Source: Oceanisphaera profunda | Lineage (GTDB): Bacteria; Pseudomonadota; Gammaproteobacteria; Enterobacterales; Aeromonadaceae | DNA: 64,000 nucleotides | Direction: 5' to 3' | Assembly: GCF_002157895.1 (NCBI RefSeq) | Contig: NZ_CP021377.1 | Span: 310,001 to 374,000, forward strand | Part shown: positions 8,996 through 21,365 of the stretch, in pieces | How positions within the stretch are numbered: position 1 is the first letter of the stretch | Layout: the number at the start of each line of letters is the position of its first letter | The notes under the pieces: model-generated | The model's input: only the letters and a program-made list of their open reading frames with translations | Database searches by the model: none | Told to the model about the DNA's origin: nothing | Made by a program: the position numbers and the translations under genes

Positions 8996-9787
8996 TTACT
9001 TATGCCGAAAAGGCTGTAGTAACAATTGGAGTAAGCGCTGCTCTGCGGGGGCGCGAAACTGGGTTAAGCCAATGGTCATACCCTGTTGGCCAGCTTGGGG
9101 CTGAGCCAGATAGGTGCCGAATAATCGGTCCCACCAAGGGAGATTAAAACCAAAGTTGCTGTCGGTCTCATGAGGGATCACCGAATGATGTACTCGGTGC
9201 ATATCTGGCGTGACCAGTATCAATCGCAGCACGGCGTCCAGCCGCTTTGGCAGCTTCACATTACCGTGATTAAACATAGAAGAGGCGTTGAGCAAGACTT
9301 CAAATAATAAAACAGCCAGTGCCGGTGCACCCAACAAAGTAACGGCGGCCAGTTTGAGCAGCATAGACAGCACAATCTCGAGTGGATGAAAGCGCAAGCC
9401 AGTAGTGACGTCGAATTCCAGATCGGCATGATGTACACGGTGTAAACGCCATAACCAAGGCAGGCCGTGAAACAGCCGATGTTGCAGATAAATAAGCAAA
9501 TCCAGTATCAGCAGCGACAACACCAGTGTTAACCACCAAGGGATAGAGAGCAGATTAAACAGCCCCCAGCCCTGCTCGCTGGCCAGTATGGCCGCCCCCA
9601 CCGCCGCCAGCGGGAAAAACAACCTTAGCAACAGAGTATTAATAACGACGAGTAGCAAATTATGAGGCCAGCGCCCCAGACGACCAATCTGCTGAGGCCG
9701 ACGGGGTGCCCAGCATTCCCACAGCATCATAATGAATAACACGCCGGCAAAGCAGCCAAGGCGGATCCAAGGTTCATGCTCAAGCAT
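8996..9787 (-). CDS. Sterol desaturase / fatty acid hydroxylase family membrane protein
   Basis: A membrane di-iron oxygenase of the fatty acid hydroxylase superfamily. The 263-residue protein has four or five hydrophobic segments and the complete histidine-box set: HRLFH (HxxxH) near residue 108, HRVHH (HxxHH) near 119, an FNHGN segment, and HRVHH near 203. It is the last gene of the minus-strand operon that starts with the sigma factor; its ATG overlaps the stop of the preceding glycosyltransferase by eight bases, so it is coupled to it. Reaction unknown: members hydroxylate or desaturate sterols, fatty acids or carotenoids, or cleave alkylglycerol ethers. In this operon a lipid-modifying role, for instance on the lipid carrying a sugar made by the two glycosyltransferases, is a guess. 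Confidence 0.85.
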   Translation of the reverse strand: MLEHEPWIRLGCFAGVLFIMMLWECWAPRRPQQIGRLGRWPHNLLLVVINTLLLRLFFPLAAVGAAILASEQGWGLFNLLSIPWWLTLVLSLLILDLLIYLQHRLFHGLPWLWRLHRVHHADLEFDVTTGLRFHPLEIVLSMLLKLAAVTLLGAPALAVLLFEVLLNASSMFNHGNVKLPKRLDAVLRLILVTPDMHRVHHSVIPHETDSNFGFNLPWWDRLFGTYLAQPQAGQQGMTIGLTQFRAPAEQRLLQLLLQPFRHK

Positions 9788-10541
9788 GGTGGCTAGCCTC
9801 CGTAACGGGAGTTTGCAGCACGCTTGCCCAGCTGGCTGTCAGCCAGAACAAGTCTTGGGGTTCATCAATATCTTGCAGCCGCTCGGCCAATGTATAGCGC
9901 CAGCCCAGTTGCGTTAGCCGCGCTTGAGTGAGCGCCGCCACTTCAGAGGTGCTCCAGGGCATATCAGTAAATAAGCAGTCGTTAAACTGGCGCAAACCCA
10001 GCAGCGCATAACCGCCATCCCAAGTAGGATGCAGCAAGGCATCTTGCATGCTCAGACGCTGGGCGGCACGACGTAATAACTCGGGGGACAATTGCGGACA
10101 GTCGGTGCCCACTAGCAATACCTGCTGCTGAACTTGAGGTGCGAGCTCGGCCCTGTTAGTTAAGGCCCTGTTATTTAATGCATAGTTAGATAAGGAATAG
10201 TTAGATAAGGTATGGCCAGATAATAAATAGCTAGGTAAGGCATGGCCAGATAAGGCTCGGCGAGCGGCGCGAGCCATGCGAGACCCTAGATCTCCCTCGC
10301 CTTGGCTGCTGAGTATCAGTTGCGGTGGCAGCAACACGCCATCCCACTCGGGAGCATCAGCGGCTGGGCTCATGCACAGCTCAACGGGGCCTATATCGGC
10401 GGTTAGGCACGCCTCTAACGTGCTGGCCAACATCTGCTGCGCAAGCATTGCCGCCCTCTCGAAACCCAGCGACCCCGCGAGTCGGGTTTTAGCTAGGCCT
10501 GCAATGGGTGCCTTGGCAAACACAATAATGCGGGTGCTCAA
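9780..10541 (-). CDS. TIGR04282-type (DUF2064) glycosyltransferase
   Basis: A nucleotide-sugar-transferase-like protein of the DUF2064/TIGR04282 family, called 'arsenosugar biosynthesis glycosyltransferase' in databases because of its neighbourhood, not from biochemistry. It begins TRIIVFAKAPIAGLAKTRL and has GTDCPQLSPE and the WDGGYALLGL motif. The start is TTG at 10541: AGGAGG sits six bases upstream, and the TTG overlaps the stop of the gene before (TTGA); an ATG 102 bases earlier would overlap the neighbour widely. About 253 residues. Between RRA and AELAPQ it carries an insert of seven five-residue repeats encoded by 15-bp DNA units (separate entry), which is unusual. Cytoplasmic; partner of the TIGR04283 enzyme encoded just upstream. 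Confidence 0.86.
   Translation of the reverse strand: MSTRIIVFAKAPIAGLAKTRLAGSLGFERAAMLAQQMLASTLEACLTADIGPVELCMSPAADAPEWDGVLLPPQLILSSQGEGDLGSRMARAARRALSGHALPSYLLSGHTLSNYSLSNYALNNRALTNRAELAPQVQQQVLLVGTDCPQLSPELLRRAAQRLSMQDALLHPTWDGGYALLGLRQFNDCLFTDMPWSTSEVAALTQARLTQLGWRYTLAERLQDIDEPQDLFWLTASWASVLQTPVTEASHHA
10150..10254 (-). repeat. Seven 15-bp tandem units inside a glycosyltransferase gene
   Basis: Seven consecutive 15-bp units, such as GCATGGCCAGATAAG and GAATAGTTAGATAAG, encode a five-residue repeat of the form small residue-Leu-Ser/Asn-Gly/Asn-His/Tyr/Arg (for example ALSGH, TLSNY, SLSNY). Units differ by point changes but keep frame and length. The pattern resembles a minimal pentapeptide repeat. 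Confidence 0.85.
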
Positions 10542-11200
10542 CGGTACCTCCTGGCTAATTGACTCGGGCACGTGCCGCGCCAGTAGGCAAAGCGCAATCG
10601 CCACATGAGGAAAATGGTGCGCCATACGCCGTTTTGCTGCCAACGCCGCCCCGAAGTCAGCACTTTTTGCCGTAAACAGGCAGGCCAGCCCACGCGCTTA
10701 AGCCGTTGGCTAAGCGCGATATCTTCCATTAAGTCTTGTTCGGGAAAGCCACCCACCGCTACAAAAGCGGTGCGGCGCATAAACAGCGCTTGATCGCCGG
10801 TCGCAATGCCTGACCAACGAGAGCGCCAGTTCATCATAAAACTGATGACTTTTAGCATGGGATGCTGGCCACTAATGGCCACATCAAATCGCCCCCACTG
10901 ATGCAGCGCTAATGCTTTACTTATCAGCGACTCAAAATGCTCTGGTAGCCCCGTGTCCGCATGCAAAAATAACAGATACTCGCCTTGGGCATGCTCGGCG
11001 CCTAAGTTCATTTGCCGAGCGCGCCCCGCAGTACTACTTAACACTTTCACACCCTGTTGCTGGGCAATAGCCACCGACTGATCACTACTGCCGCCATCCA
11101 CCACAATTAGCTCGATATGAGACTTTTGGTTCGTCAAAGCCGCCAAGGTGCTAGGCAGCGCCTTGGCCTCATTGAGCATCGGCATAATAATGGACAACAC
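10538..11200 (-). CDS. TIGR04283-type family 2 glycosyltransferase
   Basis: A GT-A fold, family 2 glycosyltransferase (220 residues). It shows the N-terminal beta strand MPMLNEA, the VVDGGSSDQS motif, GRARQMNLGA, the metal-binding LHADTGLP (the DxD-like segment), and EDIALSQRLK as the catalytic-base helix. This is the TIGR04283 family, whose members sit next to TIGR04282 proteins and ArsS. Translation starts at GTG, sharing one base with the arsS stop (TAGTG). The C-terminus is basic and aromatic (WRLRFAYWRG), which may help it sit on the membrane. Fourth gene of the sigma-led operon. The sugar donor and acceptor are unknown; the arsenosugar label is from association only. Confidence 0.88.
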   Translation of the reverse strand: MLSIIMPMLNEAKALPSTLAALTNQKSHIELIVVDGGSSDQSVAIAQQQGVKVLSSTAGRARQMNLGAEHAQGEYLLFLHADTGLPEHFESLISKALALHQWGRFDVAISGQHPMLKVISFMMNWRSRWSGIATGDQALFMRRTAFVAVGGFPEQDLMEDIALSQRLKRVGWPACLRQKVLTSGRRWQQNGVWRTIFLMWRLRFAYWRGTCPSQLARRYR

Positions 11201-12216
11201 TATGAAGCCTTAGGCGCATCGTGTAGCGCGCGACTATCTAAAGCACCATTTAAAGCACCACTGCAGCTGCTGCCTTGGCCGGCGGTGCAGCCATAGCAAT
11301 GCTCGGCGACCCGTATTGGCTGGCCGTTTAGCTCACGATGCAGCAGATCGCGCAGATGAGGTCGGTGTTCTTTATTTTCAGCATCGGGCAGCCGTAGCCC
11401 TAATTGCTGGTTAAAATCACAGTCATATAAGTAGCCTTGCCAATCCACGCTGACTAAATTGCGACACATCAAATTTGCTAAATTATCGGCTGAATAATTG
11501 TCTTTTAGTAACCGCAAATAATCATGAAACTGCCCCTTGGTAATCAGGTAATCGCCAAAGCGTTTAATGGGCATATTGGCCAAGGCAAACAGATGATTAA
11601 ACCGAATATCAAAATGCGCCAGCAGTTCACGGCGATACGCCGCCTCCAAGCCTTGTTGCTCGGGCGGCAGGGTTGGCCCTTGTGGGTTATAAACCAAATT
11701 TAATATCAAGCCAGAATCGGGCTGACCATAACCCAGCTGATTAAGTTTTTGTAATGCGGCAATGCTTTTATTAAAGGTGCCTTTACCGCGCTGTTTATCC
11801 ACATTCTCCAGCTCGTAGCACGGCAATGACGCCACTACTTCTACTTGGTGCTCGGCTAAAAAATCGGCCAAGGTTTCGTGGCCTGGCTCATAAAGAATCG
11901 TGAGATTACACCTGTCTATTACATGCACACCCAGCTTGCGCGCGGCAATCACTACCTCGCGAAAGCGCGGGTGCATCTCGGGGGCGCCGCCGGTTAAATC
12001 GAGGGTGGTCAGCTTGCGTGCCTGTAATACACGGGGGATCAGGGCGAGATTTTCGTCATCCATCATTTCGGTGCGATGCGGGCCGGCTGCCACATGACAA
12101 TGCACACATTTCATATTGCACATATAGCCCAAATTCACCTGTAGTGTATCCAGCGCATCACGCTTGAGGGCAGGAAAGCCCGTTAGGTCGAGTAGCGGTA
12201 AAGTATCTCGCATCAT
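11200..12216 (-). CDS. arsS: ArsS-type radical SAM protein (DUF3641)
   Basis: A radical SAM enzyme with a cysteine-rich C-terminal DUF3641 domain, the ArsS family. In cyanobacteria ArsS adds an adenosyl-derived group to dimethylarsinous acid, the first step to oxo-arsenosugars. The 338-residue product has the cluster motif CNMKCVHC (residues 33-40), DLTGGAPEMHP as the SAM-binding glycine motif, CRNLVSVDWQG and CDFNQQLG, and ends with HCYGCTAGQGSSCSGA, the signature Cys cluster. Two ATG codons are adjacent at the start; GGAA precedes them. It lies 45 bases after the zinc-finger gene and is coupled to the glycosyltransferase. No arsM (arsenite methyltransferase) is in the window, so the substrate in this organism is not proven; a related selenium or other methyl-metalloid substrate is possible. 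Confidence 0.88.
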   Translation of the reverse strand: MMRDTLPLLDLTGFPALKRDALDTLQVNLGYMCNMKCVHCHVAAGPHRTEMMDDENLALIPRVLQARKLTTLDLTGGAPEMHPRFREVVIAARKLGVHVIDRCNLTILYEPGHETLADFLAEHQVEVVASLPCYELENVDKQRGKGTFNKSIAALQKLNQLGYGQPDSGLILNLVYNPQGPTLPPEQQGLEAAYRRELLAHFDIRFNHLFALANMPIKRFGDYLITKGQFHDYLRLLKDNYSADNLANLMCRNLVSVDWQGYLYDCDFNQQLGLRLPDAENKEHRPHLRDLLHRELNGQPIRVAEHCYGCTAGQGSSCSGALNGALDSRALHDAPKAS

Positions 12217-12261
12217 GATTCCTTTCTTTAGGCGGATCGCATTTGGCTAACATCACCGATG

Positions 12262-12492
12262 TTAGCTGCCGTCTTTATCAACCGGATCTTGTGGGTCCGG
12301 ATCGGTCGCTGTGGTGTCGGGTCGAAGAGCAAACCGATGCGCCAATGAACGAATAATCGGTAACTGCCGTTCAAATTGACGACAACCGTTACACATCACA
12401 GTGTGCAGCGCCAAAGAGAGCTGTTCAAATTGGCTTAAGGGCCGTTCTTGACTCTCAGACATTAGCCGAGTGGCTTTGTGACAACTCAACAT
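12262..12492 (-). CDS. Zinc-finger anti-sigma-factor-like protein
   Basis: A 76-residue soluble protein of the zf-HC2 / putative anti-sigma class. Two CxxC/HxxC-like clusters are visible: SCHKAT near the N-terminus and HTVMCNGCRQFE around residue 38, matching the His-Cys-Cys zinc arrangement of anti-sigma zinc fingers. The tail is acidic and disordered (DPDPQDPVDKDG). There is no membrane segment, so it would sense something in the cytoplasm. The start chosen is the ATG inside the last codons of the sigma gene (7-base overlap), because it puts the first Cys at residue 4; a longer upstream frame would overlap the sigma gene by 46 bases. The coupling indicates that it controls that sigma factor. 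Confidence 0.8.
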   Translation of the reverse strand: MLSCHKATRLMSESQERPLSQFEQLSLALHTVMCNGCRQFERQLPIIRSLAHRFALRPDTTATDPDPQDPVDKDGS

Positions 12493-13079
12493 GGGCAGTC
12501 TCCTTGTTGTTGCCAGGTATTTTCCAGGCATTCGCGTAACCGTAACCGAGCTCGATAGAGCAGCACATTAAGATTGCTGACCGTTAAATCCAGCTCTAGG
12601 CAAATTTCTCGGCTTTCTAAACCAATAAATTCGCGCATCATAAAAGTACGGCCTTGATTGGGGGGCAGCTTGTCTAAACACAATTCAAACAAGGTCCAGA
12701 ACTCCTGATCTTGTTGGTTGCTTTCTGGCTCGCTCCATTCCACAGGACGCTCTACTTTGTGCCACATGCCAAACCGGTTAAATAGCTGCTCTTCTAACTG
12801 ATTACTGTCGTCGGCACCTAAACTGGTGAGCGTGACCAAACGCTGGTTTTTGCGGATCACATCCACAATTTTGTGCTTAAGAATGGCAAACACCCAGTTT
12901 TTATAGGCGGCCCGACCCGCAAAGCTATCGGCGTATTTAAAAGCACCCAACATGGCCTCCTGCACTGCGTCTTCAGCCAATTGCGCATCTTTTAACTGTA
13001 GGGTGGCAAAACGCAGCATTTGTCGGCGTAATTCCTCGGTCAACAAAGGGTGTGCAACATTGTGTCTATGATCCATCAT
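12486..13079 (-). CDS. ECF-type sigma factor (TIGR02943-like)
   Basis: A 197-residue sigma-70 family factor with regions 2 and 4 only. Region 2 has QLKDAQLAEDAVQEAMLGAF and the WVFAILKHKIVDVIRK promoter-melting segment; region 4 has EFIGLESREICLELDLTVSNLNVLLYRARLRLRECL, a clear helix-turn-helix. The family is the TIGR02943 group, which in other proteobacteria is also followed by a small zinc-finger protein. It is first in a six-gene minus-strand operon leading to the radical SAM enzyme, the two glycosyltransferases and the hydroxylase, and it may drive its own promoter. Unusually, the C-terminus ends GDCPC, two cysteines. Trigger unknown. Confidence 0.9.
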   Translation of the reverse strand: MMDHRHNVAHPLLTEELRRQMLRFATLQLKDAQLAEDAVQEAMLGAFKYADSFAGRAAYKNWVFAILKHKIVDVIRKNQRLVTLTSLGADDSNQLEEQLFNRFGMWHKVERPVEWSEPESNQQDQEFWTLFELCLDKLPPNQGRTFMMREFIGLESREICLELDLTVSNLNVLLYRARLRLRECLENTWQQQGDCPC

Positions 13080-13312
13080 GACTCTTATTTGGTGGTGGCA
13101 GCGGATAAACAGAGTATATGTAGCTTAGCGCCTGCGCACTCATTTAGGACTCTAATGTTACCAATGCTGTGCGTTTCGTCTCTAATGTGTTGTTATGCTT
13201 GAGTTGTAACTTAACTCTTAACTTGAGTCGTGAGCAGGCACAGCTTTATTACAGTGCGAGCGTTTTTTATTACTTTTTTTCTACCCACACAGGCCAAGTA
13301 CAGGGATCCCTA

Positions 13313-14476
13313 ATGCGCCAATATCGAATATTTAATCAGGAAGATGCCGTTGCCTATGCCCGTGAGGCGGCCCAGCTTGGGCCAGAGCTGGTCTTGCAAG
13401 GAGCAGAAATAGGAGATGGCAACCTCAATCAGGTGTTTAAAGTATGCCAACCTGGCCAGGTCACAGGGTGGATTGTAAAACAAGCGCTGCCCTATATTCG
13501 CTGCATTGGTGACTCTTGGCCCCTAACGCGGGATCGCGCGCGCATCGAAGCCGAAATATTGCTACAACATGGGCAGTGTTGCCCCGAATTTACGGTAGCG
13601 GTATTGCATCACGATGCATCTTTGTCGGCGATGCTGCTAGAGGATTTATCGGAGCTGCAAGTGTGGCGCCAAGCCTTGTTGAACGGCGAGCATTTTGCCG
13701 ATGCTCCTGTGCAGCTAGGGGAATATTTAGCACAGGTGCATGTGCACAGCAGTGACTTCCGCTTAGATTATCAAGCCCAGCAAGCTGCACGAATACAGTT
13801 TGCCAACCCTGAGTTAATGTCGATCAGCGAAGCGGTATATTTTGTCGATCCCTTTTGTGATCATGAACGTAATAATGTGGCGGCAGGTATTCGTAATGAT
13901 GCCGAACTGCTCTGGGCCGATCAGGCATTAAAAGTACGAGTAGCTAAGCTCAAGCATGACTTTCGTTGCAAGGGCCAAGCGTTATTGCATGGCGACTTGC
14001 ATACCGGATCCGTGATGGTGGGCGCCGGCAAGCTTAAAGTGATTGATGCGGAGTTTGGCGGCTATGGCCCCATGGGTTTTGATGTGGGCGTACTGATCGC
14101 CAACTTGTTGCTTAATTTATGTAGCCAGAACTCTCCTCCTCCACAGCGGCAGCGCATTAAGGACGTACAAGCCTTTTGGCAAAGCTTTCACGCCCAGTTC
14201 TTTTTATTAGCCAGCCAAACCGCGGATCCAGCCCTAGCCGAGCCTGATTATATCACCGTCTTTTTACGTCAGGTGTGGCAAGACGCCTTAGGGTATGCCG
14301 GTTGTGAAATGATACGCCGCACCTTGGGCGTCGCCCATGTGGCAGATATTGACAACATTGCCGACCCAGAGCAAAAAATCGCCAGCCAACGGCACGCATT
14401 AGCACTGGGCCGCGCTCTGATCATGCACGCCGAGCAACTTGATGACGCCGAGCTGGAGAAGATAGCGTTAGGCTAG
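13313..14476 (+). CDS. S-methyl-5-thioribose kinase-like protein (MtnK family)
   Basis: A 387-residue small-molecule kinase of the MtnK family, which phosphorylates 5-methylthioribose (and, in some bacteria, 5-deoxyribose) at C1. The start has GDGNLNQVFKV as the nucleotide loop; WIVKQALPYIR carries the ATP-binding Lys; HGDLHTGSVMV is the catalytic loop with its Asp, and IDAEFGGYGPMGFDVG holds the metal-binding DxE. An open frame extends 144 bases further upstream, but the ATG at 13313 has AGGGA before it and gives the family N-terminus. No mtnA or other salvage gene is adjacent. It is divergent from the sigma operon. Radical SAM enzymes release 5'-deoxyadenosine or, in ArsS, a 5'-substituted nucleoside, so a pentose kinase here may act on the sugar that results; this is inference. 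Confidence 0.86.
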   Translation: MRQYRIFNQEDAVAYAREAAQLGPELVLQGAEIGDGNLNQVFKVCQPGQVTGWIVKQALPYIRCIGDSWPLTRDRARIEAEILLQHGQCCPEFTVAVLHHDASLSAMLLEDLSELQVWRQALLNGEHFADAPVQLGEYLAQVHVHSSDFRLDYQAQQAARIQFANPELMSISEAVYFVDPFCDHERNNVAAGIRNDAELLWADQALKVRVAKLKHDFRCKGQALLHGDLHTGSVMVGAGKLKVIDAEFGGYGPMGFDVGVLIANLLLNLCSQNSPPPQRQRIKDVQAFWQSFHAQFFLLASQTADPALAEPDYITVFLRQVWQDALGYAGCEMIRRTLGVAHVADIDNIADPEQKIASQRHALALGRALIMHAEQLDDAELEKIALG

Positions 14477-14759: not shown

Positions 14760-16925
14760 TTAGCCCCGTCGCCAGCGATGATAACGGCTTAACCATGCCA
14801 AGATGCGTTTGGGCGCATGGGCGCGTTTCCACTCTCCGGCCACGTATTTATTGGCTTCTGCCAGTGTTGGATACACATGCATGGTGCCCAATATCTTGTT
14901 TAAGCCCAGCCCATGTTTCATGGCCAGTACATATTCTGCCAGCAAATCACCCGCATGCTCACCCACTATGGTCACCCCCAGTATTCGGTCTTTACCCGGC
15001 GGGGTTAACACCTTAATAAAGCCCTGATCTGAGCCGTCGGTAATGGCTCGGTCGAGCTCGCTCAGATTAAAGCGCGTGACTTCATAGGCGATATGTTGCG
15101 CAGTGGCTTCTTGCTCGTTTAAGCCCACTCGGGCTACCTCGGGATCGACAAAGGTACACCAAGGTACGATGGAGTAATCGACCTTAAAGCGTTTAAAATG
15201 GCCAAATAGCGCATTCACGCTCGCATACCACGCCATATGAGCGGCAGTGTGAGTGAATTGATAAGGTCCGGCCACGTCACCGGCGGCATAAATATTAGGG
15301 AACAAGGTTTCTAGATACTCATTGGTGGTTACGGTGCGCTCAGTGGTGATGCCGAGCTCCGTTAACCCAAAGCCCTGCAACCGCGCGCGCCGCCCTAGCG
15401 CTAGCAACAGGGTGTCGGCCTCAAGGGTAAGCGGTGTGTCGCCTTGATTTACCTGTACTTGGTTAACTTCTAGCCGTATGCCTGCAGATATAGGCGCTAA
15501 TTGCGTAGTGTCACAATCGGTGAGCACCCGCACCCCGTCGGCGACCAGCGCTTGTTTAACCCATTCACTCACTTCAGTATCTTCTTTGGGCATAAGGCGG
15601 GTATTGCGTTGCACCAAAGTCACGCTCGAGCCTAAGCGGGCAAAGGCTTGAGCCAGCTCGCAGCCAATCGGCCCCCCGCCCAGTATTAATAATCGCGCCG
15701 GTGGCGACGCTCGCTCGGCCATGGCCTGCCATAAGGTGTCACTGGTGAGGTAACCCACCTTATCCAATCCGGGCAATGGCGGCACCGCAGCACTGGCGCC
15801 CGTGGCAATAATAATACTGCGCGCCGTCAGCCTCTGCACATCACCGTTGCTCAAGGTCACTTCTACCGTCCAAGGGTCGACCAGTTTGCCGTGGCCTTGC
15901 AAGACGTTTACGCCCAGTTTCGTATAGCGCTCCACGCTGTCGTGAGGGGCTATCTTATTGATCACGGCCTGTACTCGCTGCATCACGCGTTTAAAGCTGA
16001 ATTCAGGTGCCGTGCTGGTGAGGCCATAATGCGCGGCATGGCGCATCTGGTGAGCCAGTTTGGCACTGCGCAGCAATGCCTTGCTGGGTACACAACCGGT
16101 ATTAAGACAGTCCCCGCCCATATTGCCGCCCTCAATAAGCGTAACCTTGGCCTTAACCGCCGCGGCTATATAGCCGCTGACTAAGCCTGCGGCACCGGCG
16201 CCAATTACTATCAGGTTGCAGTCAAAATGAGCGGGCTTATTAAAACCACGATACACTTTTCGGCGTTGTATAAGGCGCAGCACGGCACGCGCCAGCAACG
16301 GAAAAATACCGAGTAAGGCAAACGAGGCTAACAAAGTCGGCGACAGTATGCCGCTTAAGCTATTAATAGCCGCCAGCTGAGTACCGGCGTTCACATACAC
16401 CAAAGTACCGGGCAACATGCCGAGCTGACTTACCCAGTAAAAGGTGCGTATCGGCAGTGCCGTTAGCCCCATCAGCAGGTTAATGATAAAAAACGGAAAT
16501 ACCGGTACCAATCGCAGCGTAAACAGATAAAAGGCACCGTCTCGGTTAATGCCCTTATCGATGGCCTTGAGTCGGTCACCGAAGCGCTGTTGCACCTGAT
16601 CTCGCAGCAGAAACCGCGATACCAAAAACGCCAAGGTAGCACCGATACTCGAGGCAAATGACACCAATACCAACCCTTGCCAGACACCAAAAAAAGCTCC
16701 TGCGGCTAAGGTCATAATGGCCGCCCCCGGCAGTGACAACGCCGCCAGCACTACATACAGCACAAAAAAACCACCCGCCATCAACCAAGGCGACTCGGCG
16801 CGCAGCGTGGCTATGTGCGCCTGTTGTTGTTTTAGGGCGTCCAGAGTAAACCAGTCACCGAGATCGAAGATAAAAAACAGCGCAATGACCAGCACTAGCA
16901 GGATAAGCAATAGGGGTTTGCGCAT
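14760..16925 (-). CDS. TVP38/TMEM64 membrane domain fused to a mercuric-reductase-like flavoprotein
   Basis: A 721-residue fusion. Residues 1-230 form a DedA-like TVP38/TMEM64 membrane domain: an N-terminal hydrophobic helix, LSLPGAAIMTLAAGAFFG, and the amphipathic RLVPVFPFFIINLLMGL segment. From about residue 236 there is a class I pyridine nucleotide-disulfide oxidoreductase: the FAD motif VIGAGAAGLVSGY, the redox pair GGDCLNTGCVPSKAL, the NAD(P) motif LGGGPIGCELA, and AAGDVAGPYQFTHTAAH. There is no N-terminal HMA domain and no C-terminal Cys pair, so mercury reduction is not implied. The start at 16925 has AAGGA upstream. It is divergent from the Pro-Cys cytochrome gene. An electron-transfer or thiol/disulfide function at the membrane is plausible; the same fusion occurs in other proteobacteria with unknown function. 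Confidence 0.9.
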   Translation of the reverse strand: MRKPLLLILLVLVIALFFIFDLGDWFTLDALKQQQAHIATLRAESPWLMAGGFFVLYVVLAALSLPGAAIMTLAAGAFFGVWQGLVLVSFASSIGATLAFLVSRFLLRDQVQQRFGDRLKAIDKGINRDGAFYLFTLRLVPVFPFFIINLLMGLTALPIRTFYWVSQLGMLPGTLVYVNAGTQLAAINSLSGILSPTLLASFALLGIFPLLARAVLRLIQRRKVYRGFNKPAHFDCNLIVIGAGAAGLVSGYIAAAVKAKVTLIEGGNMGGDCLNTGCVPSKALLRSAKLAHQMRHAAHYGLTSTAPEFSFKRVMQRVQAVINKIAPHDSVERYTKLGVNVLQGHGKLVDPWTVEVTLSNGDVQRLTARSIIIATGASAAVPPLPGLDKVGYLTSDTLWQAMAERASPPARLLILGGGPIGCELAQAFARLGSSVTLVQRNTRLMPKEDTEVSEWVKQALVADGVRVLTDCDTTQLAPISAGIRLEVNQVQVNQGDTPLTLEADTLLLALGRRARLQGFGLTELGITTERTVTTNEYLETLFPNIYAAGDVAGPYQFTHTAAHMAWYASVNALFGHFKRFKVDYSIVPWCTFVDPEVARVGLNEQEATAQHIAYEVTRFNLSELDRAITDGSDQGFIKVLTPPGKDRILGVTIVGEHAGDLLAEYVLAMKHGLGLNKILGTMHVYPTLAEANKYVAGEWKRAHAPKRILAWLSRYHRWRRG

Positions 16926-17099: not shown

Positions 17100-17129
17100 T
17101 TTTGTAATGTTTTTGTAAAGCTTTTGTAA
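17100..17129 (+). promoter_or_regulatory. Pho-box-like triplet TTTTGTAA upstream of the Cys-rich cytochrome
   Basis: Three exact copies of TTTTGTAA begin at 17100, 17111 and 17122, with an 11-bp period. PhoB half-sites also recur every 11 bp, and the half-site TTGTAAT occurs in the good Pho box at 37864. The array ends 90 bases before the cytochrome ATG. A short hairpin (AAGGCAC/GTGCCTT, 17164-17187) lies in the probable untranslated leader. Confidence 0.55.
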
Positions 17130-17218
17130 CAACTAGGCTGTTAGCTGCGTCTTATTAGTACGCAAGGCACTTTTTATGCGGTGCCTTTATGGAAGACCCT
17201 ATCTTAAGGAGTACCATC

Positions 17219-18133
17219 ATGCGTCTATGTCATTTTCACTCAGCATCTCACTTTCGTATTACCCCCGTTGCCGCCTTAGTGTCCGCATCCCTGATGGCGC
17301 TTGCACTATCAGGCCCTGTGCAAGCCGTTGAGTCGGGGGGGCATGTAGCTCAAGAGAATGCCGTGCAACAGTTAGCCATGAGCAAGAATCCTTGTGCTGC
17401 TAGTCCCTGCAGTGCCGCCGAGTCTGCTACCAAAAATCCTTGTGCGACTAAAAATCCTTGCGCCGTGAAGAGTCCCTGTGCGACCAAGAACCCCTGCGCG
17501 ATGAAAAGCCCGTGTTCGGCCAATCCCTGCGCCATTAAGCCGGCGAAAGTAAATCCCTGTGCAGCTAAACCGGCAAAAGTGAACCCCTGTGCCGCCAAGG
17601 CCGTGCAACGCCCAGATAATTATCAACCTTACCAAGGCGATAACGCCGAGTTGGTAACGCTAGGTAAGGCGCTGTTTAACGATACCAGCCTAAGCAGCAA
17701 TGGCCTTTCTTGCAGCAACTGTCATCAAAGCCAGATGATGTATCAGGCAAGCTTTGCCATGGCGTATCCCCATCCGGTGGCGATGGCGCAAGATCAGTTT
17801 GGTCTGAGTCAGGTGCATTTGGATGAAATGATCCAAATTTGTATGATGTCCCCCATGGCGACGCAGCCCTTAGCGTGGGATTCAAAAGAGCTAGCCGCCT
17901 TGGTCGCCTATGTCCAAACCGAGCAAACCAGCTATTCACCCAGTGGAGCCAATCCTTGCGCGGCAAAAAATCCCTGTGCGATGAAGAACCCTTGTACAAT
18001 AAAAAGCCCATGCAAGGCTAATCCCTGCGCGACGAAAAAACCTTGTGCAATGAAAAGCCCCTGTAAGGCTAATCCCTGTGCGGTAAAGAACCCTTGTGCC
18101 GTTAAAAACCCCTGCGCGGCTAAGTCACAGTAG
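17219..18133 (+). CDS. Secreted cytochrome c flanked by Pro-Cys repeat arrays
   Basis: A 304-residue exported protein. Residues 1-36 are a signal peptide ending VQA. Residues 56-127 hold ten NPC/SPC motifs, mostly in six-residue units such as KNPCAT; residues 133-235 are a cytochrome c domain with heme motif CSNCH (165-169) and the PLAWDSKELAALVAYV end helix; the last 65 residues hold ten more NPC/SPC/KPC motifs. Besides the heme pair and one Cys in the domain there are therefore twenty regularly spaced thiols. Lys-rich spacers make the arrays basic. AAGGAG precedes the ATG. It is followed at once by a His-rich protein gene and is divergent from the TVP38-flavoprotein. Metal or metalloid binding, or thiol redox buffering coupled to electron transfer, are possible roles; none is known to me. 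Confidence 0.85.
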   Translation: MRLCHFHSASHFRITPVAALVSASLMALALSGPVQAVESGGHVAQENAVQQLAMSKNPCAASPCSAAESATKNPCATKNPCAVKSPCATKNPCAMKSPCSANPCAIKPAKVNPCAAKPAKVNPCAAKAVQRPDNYQPYQGDNAELVTLGKALFNDTSLSSNGLSCSNCHQSQMMYQASFAMAYPHPVAMAQDQFGLSQVHLDEMIQICMMSPMATQPLAWDSKELAALVAYVQTEQTSYSPSGANPCAAKNPCAMKNPCTIKSPCKANPCATKKPCAMKSPCKANPCAVKNPCAVKNPCAAKSQ

Positions 18134-18140
18134 GATGCCT

Positions 18141-18881
18141 ATGACAAGCAGCACACTTCAACCCTTGCCCAAACTAGTAGTACCGGTGGCAGTCAGCCTG
18201 CCCACCGCAGACATACATCGATTACGTGAAGCTGGTGCCCAAATTCGGGAATGTTATCGAGTAATGAGCAAAGGCGGAGTTAATATCGTCGGGGAAGTGC
18301 TTAAAGGCCAAGGGACCTTTTTTGAGATGACCCACTATCCCCTAGACGATGTATTGGATAAAGACAGCCACAGCCAATATTACTACCACGCTCATCGTGG
18401 TGGTGAGCAGGAGCATGGCCACTTCCACACCTTTTTGCGTGCGCCCGCCATTCCCGCCGAACTCTGTATGCGGAATTACCCACAAGCCAGTGAGCCTTGG
18501 CCCCAAGGAGATCAGGCGATTGCCCATCTGGTTGCCATTGCTATGGACGCTTGGGGATACCCCTCAAGCCTGTTCGCCTGTAATCGCTGGGTGACCGATG
18601 AAAGCTGGTATCCGGCAGCAGCGGTAATCTCCATGCTGGATAATTTTGTTATCGATCATGCTAATCCGTCTTGGCCGGTGAATATTTGGCTGAGCAACAT
18701 GCTGGTGTTATTCCGCCCCCATATAGAAGCGCTGCTGGTGCACCGCGATGCGGTGATCGACCAGTGGCAGGCGCAATATCCAGAGCAGGACATCTTTGAA
18801 AATCGGCAACTAGAGATCACCGGCCAGCTCGCTATTTCGGTGGATGACTGGCTAGCCGAACTGGAGGCGGTGTTGGTTTAA
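18141..18881 (+). CDS. Conserved hypothetical protein with a His-rich loop
   Basis: A cytoplasmic 246-residue protein that I believe belongs to an unnamed family (perhaps DUF6969; uncertain). It has no signal peptide or membrane helix. A central segment YYYHAHRGGEQEHGHFHTF contains six histidines within 19 residues and could bind a metal; a long alpha-helical region with many Trp follows. Its start is within ten bases of the cytochrome stop, so it is the second gene of that operon. The ATG at 18141 has TAGGA at a suitable distance; another ATG six bases earlier is possible. Being coupled to the Pro-Cys cytochrome, it may take part in its maturation or metal loading, which is inference. Confidence 0.72.
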   Translation: MTSSTLQPLPKLVVPVAVSLPTADIHRLREAGAQIRECYRVMSKGGVNIVGEVLKGQGTFFEMTHYPLDDVLDKDSHSQYYYHAHRGGEQEHGHFHTFLRAPAIPAELCMRNYPQASEPWPQGDQAIAHLVAIAMDAWGYPSSLFACNRWVTDESWYPAAAVISMLDNFVIDHANPSWPVNIWLSNMLVLFRPHIEALLVHRDAVIDQWQAQYPEQDIFENRQLEITGQLAISVDDWLAELEAVLV

Positions 18882-18900
18882 TGACAACAACGTCATAATT

Positions 18901-18945
18901 AAAAACGCCGCGGGTAAAGACTGTTTGGTCTTTACCCGCAGCGCT
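18901..18945. terminator. Bidirectional terminator between the His-rich protein gene and ovoA
   Basis: A 12-bp perfect stem GCGGGTAAAGAC/GTCTTTACCCGC (18910-18939) with a 6-base loop lies between the two convergent genes. On the minus strand it is followed by GGCGTTTTTAATT, a good tract for ovoA; on the plus strand the tract (CTGTTTTAG) is weaker. Confidence 0.8.
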
Positions 18946-18989: not shown

Positions 18990-21104
18990 TTACTTCAACT
19001 GCCACACCGTCATATCGGCTAGGGTATGTTGATATTTGCGGCGGGTTTCGCGGATCACAAACGGCACGTCTTGTTGCGCCACTAGGTTAAAGCGCTCGCC
19101 TAATAAACGTCTTAAGCCGTCTAGGGTAGTAACATTTTCGCCATTCACCTTAATGCCGCCCAGCCATTTGTCTTTCGGCGTGTATTGCTCAAGCCAAGTG
19201 TAAGGTGAGGTTAACACCAAGTAACCGCCAGCGGTTAAGCGTTCATGAATGTGATTTAAGAACAAGCTCGGATCGTATAAACGGTCGATCAAATTGCCGC
19301 AAAATATCAGATCATAATCGCTAAAACGTGCCTTTAAGTTACAGGCATCGCCTTGTACAAAGTCAATTTTATCAGCCAGCTCGCTGTAGCCTAAATCACT
19401 TAAACTGACCTCTTTAAACTCGACTAGCTCGCCTTCGGTCGGAATAGCAAAGCGGGTGTGGCCGGTTTCTTTTAACTGAAAGCCGTGCTGAATAAAACGT
19501 GCCGAAAAGTCGATGCCATCTACGTGATCAAAGTGGCATGCCAGCTCAAAACTGGCGCGACCCACGGAGCAACCTAAGTCCAGCGCCCTTGCGTGTTTTA
19601 ACTCAGGGGTGTGCTTAAGCAAAGCCTGCACACAAGCTTGAGGGTAATTGGGCACATTAAAGTAAGTGTCACCGTAGTGAAACTCTAAGTATTGGGCGAC
19701 AAGTTCGTCTGTTTCGTAAGTATTAACCGGTTCCACTGGCACCTCAGCGCTGTCGGACTCTAGGTATCTAAAGCCCGCATGTTGAAAAAAGTGACGACGA
19801 AAGGCATAACGCGCGTAACGAGAGGCTTCGTTACCGGTCGATGCCCAAGAGCCGCCTTTAAATAAATTGTGTTGGCCATCGAAGGTAGGCGTGGAGAAGT
19901 CATCATATAAAGGATGCACTTCAAAGCCGGGAAAACCATCGATGGCGGATTCGGTCCATTGCCACACATTGCCGACGATATCGCACAGGCCTTGGTGTTC
20001 AAAGCGGTTAACTGGGCAAGAGGAGGCATAATGCTCGAGGTTAAGATTGCCAGGCGCTTGGCTCCAATGGGGTTGATCCGTGTCGAGCTGATTGCGCAGC
20101 ACCGTCCATTCGGCTTCGGTAGGTAAACGGATATGGCGGCCGGTCTGATTCGCTTTCCAGTTACAAAAGGCCTTGGCTTCGAGGTAATTCACCTCTACCG
20201 GCCAATCCAGCGGCAGCGGCATTTCTTGCAATAAATTGCGCTGCAGATATTCGCCGTGCTGATAACGCCAAAAACGCGGCATGATGGCACCGGTAAATTC
20301 TAGCCAACCTTGCCCCTCGCTCGTCCACCACTTAGCGTCTTGGTAGCCGCCCGCCTGCACAAAGTCTAAGAACTCACCATTAGACACCAGAAATTTCGCC
20401 ACTTTAAAGGGCGCCACGTCCACGGTCTTTTGGCCGTATTCATTGTCCCAGCCATAAGTGGCGACCGAACTGGGCTTGCCCAGCGTGACCGTCTGCCCCG
20501 CTATCGGTAACAAACTATTTGTGGGTGCCACGCCCGCTTGGCTACACGCCGCCCACTGAGGGTGCGCGTCCAGATATTTAAGGGGCAACATGCGCATAAT
20601 CACCGACGAGGTTTCCAGGTGAATGCGCTCGTGCTCAATGCCCATTAAAATAAGCCAAGCCGGTGAGTCTTGGGTAATGGGCAAGCTAAGGGGCATATCA
20701 GTGATCAGCGCATCCACAATGTGGCGCACTTGGTTACGATAGTGGCGAGTGTCGGCTAGGCTTGGCCAGTCGTAGTGGGCACTATTAAGATCGTCCCAGG
20801 ACATTTCATCCACGCCAATGGCAAACATGGACTCTAAGCGTTCGTTCACCCGCTGATGTTGGTATTTACCCAGTAATAGCTTGTTGATAAAGAATACGGC
20901 CGTGTGGCCAAAATAGAAGATCAAAGGGTGGCGCAGTGGCTCGGCACGTACATAATAGGCTTCATCACTGTTAATACAGTCAAACAGGCTTTCGTACTGG
21001 CTAAAGGTGTGGTGAAAATAGTTGCGAATTTCAGCGCGTTTGGCGGCCACTGAACTGCCGGTTAGTAACGGCGTTTTACTCACCACCTCTGTTAGTTTTT
21101 CCAT
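18990..21104 (-). CDS. ovoA: 5-histidylcysteine sulfoxide synthase OvoA
   Basis: OvoA is the iron enzyme that joins cysteine to histidine and then N-methylates the product, in ovothiol A synthesis. The 704-residue protein has all three modules: an N-terminal DinB-like domain (residues 1-175) with the iron-binding HERIHLE (HxxxHxE), a formylglycine-generating-enzyme-like sulfoxide synthase domain (about 210-440) with GNVWQWTES, FKGGSW and YARYAFRR, and a C-terminal SAM methyltransferase (about 480-700) with ALDLGCSVGRASFEL. The ATG at 21104 has AAGG six bases upstream; another ATG six bases earlier abuts that site. The lyase OvoB that completes ovothiol is not in the window. Ovothiol is a low-molecular-weight thiol antioxidant, so its place near the Cys-rich block may be meaningful or chance. 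Confidence 0.93.
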   Translation of the reverse strand: MEKLTEVVSKTPLLTGSSVAAKRAEIRNYFHHTFSQYESLFDCINSDEAYYVRAEPLRHPLIFYFGHTAVFFINKLLLGKYQHQRVNERLESMFAIGVDEMSWDDLNSAHYDWPSLADTRHYRNQVRHIVDALITDMPLSLPITQDSPAWLILMGIEHERIHLETSSVIMRMLPLKYLDAHPQWAACSQAGVAPTNSLLPIAGQTVTLGKPSSVATYGWDNEYGQKTVDVAPFKVAKFLVSNGEFLDFVQAGGYQDAKWWTSEGQGWLEFTGAIMPRFWRYQHGEYLQRNLLQEMPLPLDWPVEVNYLEAKAFCNWKANQTGRHIRLPTEAEWTVLRNQLDTDQPHWSQAPGNLNLEHYASSCPVNRFEHQGLCDIVGNVWQWTESAIDGFPGFEVHPLYDDFSTPTFDGQHNLFKGGSWASTGNEASRYARYAFRRHFFQHAGFRYLESDSAEVPVEPVNTYETDELVAQYLEFHYGDTYFNVPNYPQACVQALLKHTPELKHARALDLGCSVGRASFELACHFDHVDGIDFSARFIQHGFQLKETGHTRFAIPTEGELVEFKEVSLSDLGYSELADKIDFVQGDACNLKARFSDYDLIFCGNLIDRLYDPSLFLNHIHERLTAGGYLVLTSPYTWLEQYTPKDKWLGGIKVNGENVTTLDGLRRLLGERFNLVAQQDVPFVIRETRRKYQHTLADMTVWQLK

Positions 21105-21365
21105 GTTCATCCTTGATGCTTGTTAATTTTCAACGATATAAATGCGAGAAAATTCAGCGCGCATTTCACAATACACATCAGACCCGTGAAGTAGCGGCTC
21201 TCTTTCGTGGCGCCACGCAAGTCCAACTATATTGCTACTAAGACCCACGGGTCTACGTTAAAAATCGGTTTAAAGCCGCCACAGCTGTGCTATAACGCTG
21301 TTCTTTATCCTTGGTGTTAACCTCGGCTTTAATCCTGTTTTGTTCATCTCTCACTAGGAAGTATC

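Follow-up and report, generated by a model that had tools for sequence, protein, structure and literature searches.

A Cys-repeat cytochrome gene and a DUF6969 gene form a likely operon

The stretch of Oceanisphaera profunda DNA analysed here (the window, 64,000 nucleotides of a genome assembled as one contig of 3.5 Mb) contains a gene for an exported cytochrome c set within two arrays of Pro-Cys units, directly followed on the same strand by a gene for a protein of the Pfam family DUF6969. The features of the locus and its surroundings are:

12262..12531, minus strand: anti-sigma factor (NF052368, E 8.7e-20; zf-HC2 at only 15.9 bits, under the cut-off)
12486..13079, minus strand: ECF sigma factor of the TIGR02943 family (E 1.3e-68, over the cut-off), likely regulator of the operon
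13227..13253, minus strand: the same ECF-type promoter motif as at 17125, upstream of the sigma gene, suggesting autoregulation
14760..16925, minus strand: fusion of a VTT membrane domain with a MerA/lipoamide-dehydrogenase-like reductase, transcribed away from the operon, a recurrent neighbour
17125..17151, plus strand: ECF-type promoter candidate, TGTAAC-N17-CGTC, 5' of the heme/Cys-repeat gene
17219..18133, plus strand: exported monoheme cytochrome c within two Pro-Cys repeat arrays, 304 aa
17219..17326, plus strand: N-terminal signal peptide with predicted cleavage after PVQA, a hydrophobic leader recognised by reading the sequence and not by a signal-peptide program
17387..17593, plus strand: N-terminal array, 10 Pro-Cys units
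17606..17926, plus strand: SoxA/TsdA-fold monoheme domain
17711-17725, plus strand: CSNCH heme motif
17840-17842, plus strand: conserved candidate heme-ligand Cys
17951..18118, plus strand: C-terminal array, 10 Pro-Cys units
18135, plus strand: alternative in-frame ATG of the DUF6969 frame
18141..18881, plus strand: DUF6969 protein of 246 residues (PF22308, E 4e-81), in which no signal peptide was seen
18387..18428, plus strand: residues 83-96 of DUF6969 with its HxH...EHGHxH motif, where a metal site is predicted
18904..18945, no strand assigned: strong hairpin between the operon and the convergent ovoA, probable terminator

An AAGGAG sequence can be read 7 nt 5' of the ATG of the heme/Cys-repeat gene, and the stop codon of this gene is separated from the DUF6969 start by one base (ATG at 18135) or by seven (ATG at 18141). 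As the two genes are adjacent and followed by the hairpin, they look like a two-gene operon. The convergent gene (18990-21110) encodes the ovothiol synthase OvoA, with its N- and C-terminal equivalog domains, which makes for a thiol-rich neighbourhood.

The sigma and anti-sigma genes are located 4.1-5 kb upstream of the operon, and the ECF sigma factor likely controls it. The motif TGTAAY-N17-CGWC is present 5' of the heme/Cys-repeat gene in 7/7 Oceanisphaera having that gene and upstream of the sigma gene in 3/3 Oceanisphaera examined; it is absent from the fetched locus of the one Oceanisphaera without the heme domain, and none of the 8 sigma genes from other genera showed it in the upstream region. 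The window holds two hits versus 0.20 expected, for a pattern drawn from these very sites, and genome-wide the motif occurs 10 times versus 38 for its reversed form, so that only the conserved sites count. Related ECF genes lie near 8 of the 55 DUF6969 loci outside Oceanisphaera described below, the one tested (L033) scoring under the TIGR02943 cut-off. The VTT-reductase fusion recurs at 3/55 of these loci (Marinobacter L031, L033, L034), and its two parts are encoded in separate frames in L122. Another such fusion (L218:9074-11254; phmmer E 1e-70 for the VTT part) lies close to an NPC heme gene, in a genome where DUF6969 gave no hit.

The arrays keep their cysteines while changing in size

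The arrays comprise 20 Pro-Cys (PC) units, ten on each side of CSNCH, made up of 14 NPC, 5 SPC and one KPC. A preliminary description of this DNA had counted ten plus ten NPC/SPC motifs, which is right for the number and for 19 of the units but not for the KPC. The six-residue spacing that it gave likewise holds for most of the protein, where consecutive units are 5-6 residues apart, but not for intervals of 10, 10 and 11 in the N-terminal array. It was correct in calling the spacers basic (20 Lys and 1 Arg versus 1 Asp and 1 Glu, tallied over 126 characters that cover 17 Cys of the arrays) and in recognising a CxxCH cytochrome domain and a secretion signal, seen here as CSNCH and a leader ending in PVQA. 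Its interpretation of the 10 + 10 symmetry as design, however, is not supported by comparison with six other Oceanisphaera, where the arrays measure 7+6, 10+13 (the 10 counting one PC within the leader), 14+9, 12+17, 11+17 and 10+12, or with L122, where they measure 12+0.

Across the seven Oceanisphaera copies the number of PC units ranges from 13 to 29, and there are three clear losses of a Cys (NPS, NPW and SPR, with KPA and SPSG stretches treated as spacers). The arrays thus keep their cysteines, rather than varying freely without them as the preliminary description had asked to be checked. All four Pro codons (CCC 11, CCT 7, CCG 1, CCA 1) and both Cys codons (TGT 12, TGC 8) are used in the arrays of the window, which are therefore not a recent DNA duplication. 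With a leader read from the sequence and 20 PC units, the protein has the make-up of a Sec-exported Cys-rich precursor, and the heme-linked array is found in 7 of the 8 Oceanisphaera having the system. These observations support the view that selection has maintained the array of exported thiols, which is linked to a heme and to a His-rich partner.

The heme domain resembles SoxA and TsdA

The domain enclosed by the arrays has TsdA/SoxA as its nearest family; it reaches 31.4 bits with PF21342 (SoxA-TsdA cytochrome c domain), over the cut-off of 27, and does not reach the NCBIfam SoxA equivalog (29.6 versus a cut-off of 110). Its candidate ligand Cys aligns with a Cys of SoxA (1h31) and is kept in 12/12 aligned heme domains. 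In TsdA/SoxA enzymes thiosulfate is joined oxidatively to a thiol via the Cys heme ligand (PMC4423706). The window's protein shares with these cytochromes the fold of the heme domain and the position of the Cys ligand, but it is set within thiol arrays, is monoheme, its single CxxCH leaving no second heme as in TsdA, and carries Met (or Val) and Pro at positions -4 and +4 from the ligand Cys, where TsdA has the catalytic Arg and Ser with which it handles thiosulfate. Since these two residues are missing, plain thiosulfate chemistry is unlikely. Both are present in the genome's own TsdA-type diheme cytochrome (L017:1318-2226, DRINGCMQRSM), which adjoins a transposase-like gene. A lipoprotein homologue of the heme domain without repeats (L025:3376-5650) stands, as judged by eye, in a row with TlpA- and DsbD-like genes.

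The DUF6969 partner has an invariant His-rich site

The partner protein scores 271.9 bits with PF22308, for which the curated cut-off is 27, and its structure model has a pLDDT of 86.7 and a pTM of 0.88. Numbered from the ATG at 18141, residues H83, H85, E91, G93, H94, H96, H129, N148 and V151 are identical in 63/63 DUF6969 sequences, and H92 is present in 62/63. The six histidines that the preliminary description had placed in one loop do occur within residues 77-96, but the model distributes five of them over two adjacent strands (residues 78-85 and 92-100), and the first, H77, is not conserved. DUF6969 is apparently leaderless and probably cytosolic, with an invariant His-rich site that probably binds a metal. 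A literature search for DUF6969, PF22308 or NPCAAKNPC found no publication, and we know of no function for this family.

DUF6969 co-occurs with variable Cys-repeat proteins

Among 61 genomes of close relatives and other members of the order, 8 have DUF6969, and every one of these is an Oceanisphaera. The family was also found in 30/369 genomes of the class and in 20/398 of the phylum, and a pattern-based scan of GTDB contigs, which reaches close relatives only, gave 10 loci. The 63 loci analysed consist of the window, 7 other Oceanisphaera, 6 from the GTDB-contig scan and 49 from the class and phylum samples. After curation by eye, a gene for a Pro-Cys repeat protein was assigned nearby at 49 of them, mostly just upstream and on the same strand, and a gene for another Cys-rich secreted peptide at six (L096, L097, L126-L129). 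No Cys-repeat gene is nearby at eight loci (L028, on a contig of 4.7 kb; L030; L092; L093; L112; L114; L121, whose gene is close to a contig end; L124); NPC repeats occur elsewhere in the genome for three of the seven searched (L028, L114, L121). A Cys-repeat protein is therefore found nearby or in the genome for 58/63 DUF6969 loci, and the five loci without a peptide are L030 (locus only), L092, L093, L112 and L124. The preliminary description had made its proposal depend on the partner not occurring without a Cys-repeat protein, which agrees with the 58 loci, none having been found for the other five; its own refuting conditions were thus for the most part withstood.

The repeats were also searched for with a DNA pattern for NPC[A/G]xxNPC, using the reversed pattern as a control. 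The pattern occurs in 10/369 class genomes and 21/349 phylum genomes, with one hit of the reversed control in each sample. In the class sample it is present in 8/30 DUF6969-positive versus 2/339 negative genomes (Fisher P 3e-8), and in the phylum sample, where DUF6969 status was assigned by genome handle and which shares some genomes with the class sample, in 8/12 versus 13/337 (P 2e-8). Pattern-bearing genomes without DUF6969 number 2/10 in the class and 13/21 in the phylum; examples with NPC repeats but no DUF6969 are G121, G364, G170 and G252, as well as families f221 and f223. The association is thus strong from DUF6969 to Cys repeats and weaker in reverse.

The Cys-repeat unit varies widely between taxa (NPCAAK, NPCAPSARGG, NPCGPAKK, SPCGL, APCSAA, CGAK), and the PC-type proteins at DUF6969 loci have between 2 and 29 PC units, the peptides at L102 and L104 having just two. 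If the exported protein were a substrate and its partner the enzyme, one would expect the first to change fast and the second to keep a fixed His/Glu motif, as they do here, and DUF6969 shows both the linkage to a variable peptide (58/63 loci or their genomes) and the invariant candidate active site that would characterise a RiPP maturase. A TsdA-like heme domain is encoded at only 17/63 DUF6969 loci, at odds with the earlier view of heme plus thiol array as the core unit, and in the tree the heme form lies within one branch of modest support (99/71). The commoner core is a Cys-repeat peptide with DUF6969, and the heme form is one elaboration of it.

At five of the loci without DUF6969 that were read (L165, L193, L194, L221, L222), the NPC protein adjoins multiheme cytochromes; it bears heme itself in L193, L194, L221 and L222 and is heme-free in L165. 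Beside the NPC peptide of L165 (8043-9824), a multiheme cytochrome is fused to a thioredoxin/DsbD-like domain (PF13899, E 3e-15), resembling a cytochrome-to-thiol electron bridge. At L221 (4340-8561), in a genome (G442) without a DUF6969 hit, genes for ArsS, ArsM (PRK11873, E 3e-106, over the cut-off), a peptide and a heme protein with NPC repeats, and a multiheme cytochrome that matches ExtKL weakly are consecutive.

Neighbouring genes point more to sulfur than to metals

Neighbours were counted at the 55 DUF6969 loci outside Oceanisphaera, within the stretches fetched. A two-stretch rhodanese with a leader follows DUF6969 or lies near it on the same strand at 19/55 loci, and a YeeE/YedE-type sulfur transporter (PF04143, Sulf_transp) is encoded on the same strand at 14/55. 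As the rhodanese loci map to a single change on the tree (weak support, 46/75), many of them may represent one inherited association, and their distribution is compatible with an old link that was later lost. L130 brings together a TsdA-like cytochrome, a split sulfur transporter, a Cys peptide, DUF6969 and rhodanese, and L085, a locus of the cytochrome type, combines Cys-repeat proteins, DUF6969 and Sulf_transp in one place. Neither a rhodanese nor a sulfur transporter was seen adjoining the operon of the window. Across the 17 loci of the heme type, a transporter occurs at L085 only and a rhodanese at none. Thioredoxin and DsbD genes adjoin L086 and L088.

Genes for MNIO, DUF2063 and DoxX are present at 4/55 loci (L028, L088, L122 and L128, the last with PF05114 at E 1e-103). 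At L128 (5138-8662) MNIO, DUF2063, DoxX, a CGAK-repeat peptide and DUF6969 stand in one row, a bufferin-type cluster with DUF6969. The window's genome gave no MNIO hit (PF05114), while 2/14 control genomes were positive. ArsS is near 1/55 loci (L128), and TIGR04282/TIGR04283 genes are near 1/55. Sulfur is suggested more than metals by the genes most often found nearby, although a few loci carry MNIO (copper-type) and ArsS/ArsM genes. An island in the window (8996-14476) encodes ArsS, TIGR04282 and TIGR04283 glycosyltransferases and an MtnK-type kinase, genes whose names refer to arsenosugars or methylthioribose. Yet the genome returned no homologue with the ArsM of L221 as query (a search run with no positive control), and the name arsenosugar may not be right for this island.

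A periplasmic carrier of sulfane sulfur as the preferred reading

Our observations point to a two-gene Cys-repeat/DUF6969 thiol system outside the cell membrane that, as far as our searches go, is undescribed. The preferred reading, to which we give a probability of about 40%, is that a cytosolic, probably metal-binding DUF6969 acts on a Cys-repeat carrier and that this carrier, once exported, handles periplasmic sulfane sulfur. A carrier of repeated (Pro-)Cys-[Ala/Ser/Gly] units would be made in the cytosol, where DUF6969 would act on its Cys units or load them before export; once exported by Sec, it would serve as a periplasmic multi-thiol acceptor for sulfane sulfur, as persulfide or thiosulfonate groups. 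Where a periplasmic rhodanese or a YeeE/YedE-type sulfur transporter is present, the carrier would cooperate with it. In the form seen in Oceanisphaera and relatives, the TsdA/SoxA-fold heme enclosed by the arrays would, through its conserved Cys ligand, take electrons from this sulfur-thiol chemistry and pass them on, and the nearby ECF sigma factor would control the operon. Pairing, Cys/His conservation, heme-domain family and neighbours are computed results. We infer that DUF6969 is located in the cytosol, holds a metal and acts on the Cys units, that the cargo is sulfur, and how electrons travel and the sigma factor exerts control; the enzymatic nature of DUF6969 is our proposal.

Counted for this reading were the pairing, the variable peptide versus the fixed DUF6969 motif, the rhodanese and Sulf_transp neighbours, L085, the TsdA/SoxA-like heme domain with its kept ligand Cys, and thioredoxin/DsbD at L086 and L088; counted against it were the missing TsdA Arg/Ser, the lack of sulfur neighbours at the window's operon, the possibility that rhodanese reflects one inherited link, the NPC proteins without DUF6969, the five loci without a peptide, and the ArsS/ArsM and MNIO links. 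A likeness in idea exists to the Sox system, where the YeeE-like SoxT is discussed as taking up the sulfur that SoxYZ, a periplasmic carrier, gives off (PMC11582611). What is alike is the notion of sulfane sulfur bound to Cys on a carrier in the periplasm and passed to a YeeE-type importer. The system here differs in having a many-Cys repeat peptide and DUF6969.

The Cys-repeat protein might instead be a sponge for copper or another soft metal, chelating Cu(I) in the periplasm like bufferins and captophorins, with DUF6969 maturing it or handling its metal, either instead of MNIO or together with it. Bufferins are likewise Sec-exported, variable-length precursors with Cys motifs and a dedicated enzyme, and some of their clusters are reported to include cytochrome c fusions and sigma-factor genes (PMC12452194); a secreted, variable-length Cys-repeat precursor beside a dedicated protein is the feature shared with both groups (PMC12452194, PMC13097082), and the four loci with MNIO, DUF2063 and DoxX fit as well. 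The units differ, however, being EGKCG in bufferins and Lys-Cys or Cys-Lys in captophorins (PMC13097082) versus Pro-Cys here, and both groups are RiPPs modified by MNIO, which most DUF6969 loci lack nearby and the window's genome lacks altogether, so that by this defining feature the window's operon is not a bufferin cluster. Rhodanese and sulfur transporters are also the commoner neighbours, and no copper gene was seen by eye among the partly annotated neighbour clusters common to at least four groups. We consider a metal sponge less likely than the sulfur carrier, but a live rival to it.

Less probable again, though also a live rival, is a periplasmic arsenite trap, in which As(III) would be held between adjacent thiols and the operon would be part of the adjoining arsenosugar-type island. 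The window's ArsS, TIGR04282 and TIGR04283 genes, within 7.5 kb of the operon, the consecutive NPC and ArsM/ArsS genes of L221 and the ArsS near L128 would agree with it, but 'arsenosugar' is a database name, the ArsM query gave nothing in the window's genome, and within the stretches fetched ArsS is near a single one of the 55 other loci, as are the TIGR04282/TIGR04283 genes. We give a similarly low likelihood to an unmodified thiol/disulfide relay or store, in which Cys pairs cycle between dithiol and disulfide, the heme links them to respiration and DUF6969 is a sensor or assembly factor rather than a modifying enzyme. The multiheme cytochromes beside NPC proteins in genomes without DUF6969, the thioredoxin domain at L165, the DsbD- and TlpA-like genes at L025 (by eye) and the thioredoxin and DsbD genes at L086 and L088 suit such a relay, which nevertheless leaves unexplained why Cys peptides almost always come with a leaderless protein that is His-rich and invariant, as well as the peptides of L102 and L104 with their two PC units.

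On a bolder reading, DUF6969 might found a new family of metal-dependent enzymes, of a fold without a PDB match here, that modify post-translationally or sulfur-load the Cys units of exported repeat proteins. This would be a new RiPP-like class in Pseudomonadota, some of whose substrates would have a built-in Cys-ligated heme oxidising the modified thiols; we put it forward tentatively, at somewhat less than an even chance. DUF6969, so far a Pfam domain with no assigned function, acquires a defined partner, as it tracks fast-varying secreted Cys-repeat proteins over 63 loci. Its function becomes directly testable, and so does a new way to Cys-based carriers of sulfur or metals. The heme variant would amount to a thiol array with its own electron outlet. 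Downstream of DUF6969 at L115 (6744-7838), a Pro-Cys array of 15 PC units is joined to another kind of domain, which contains a CHACH heme motif.
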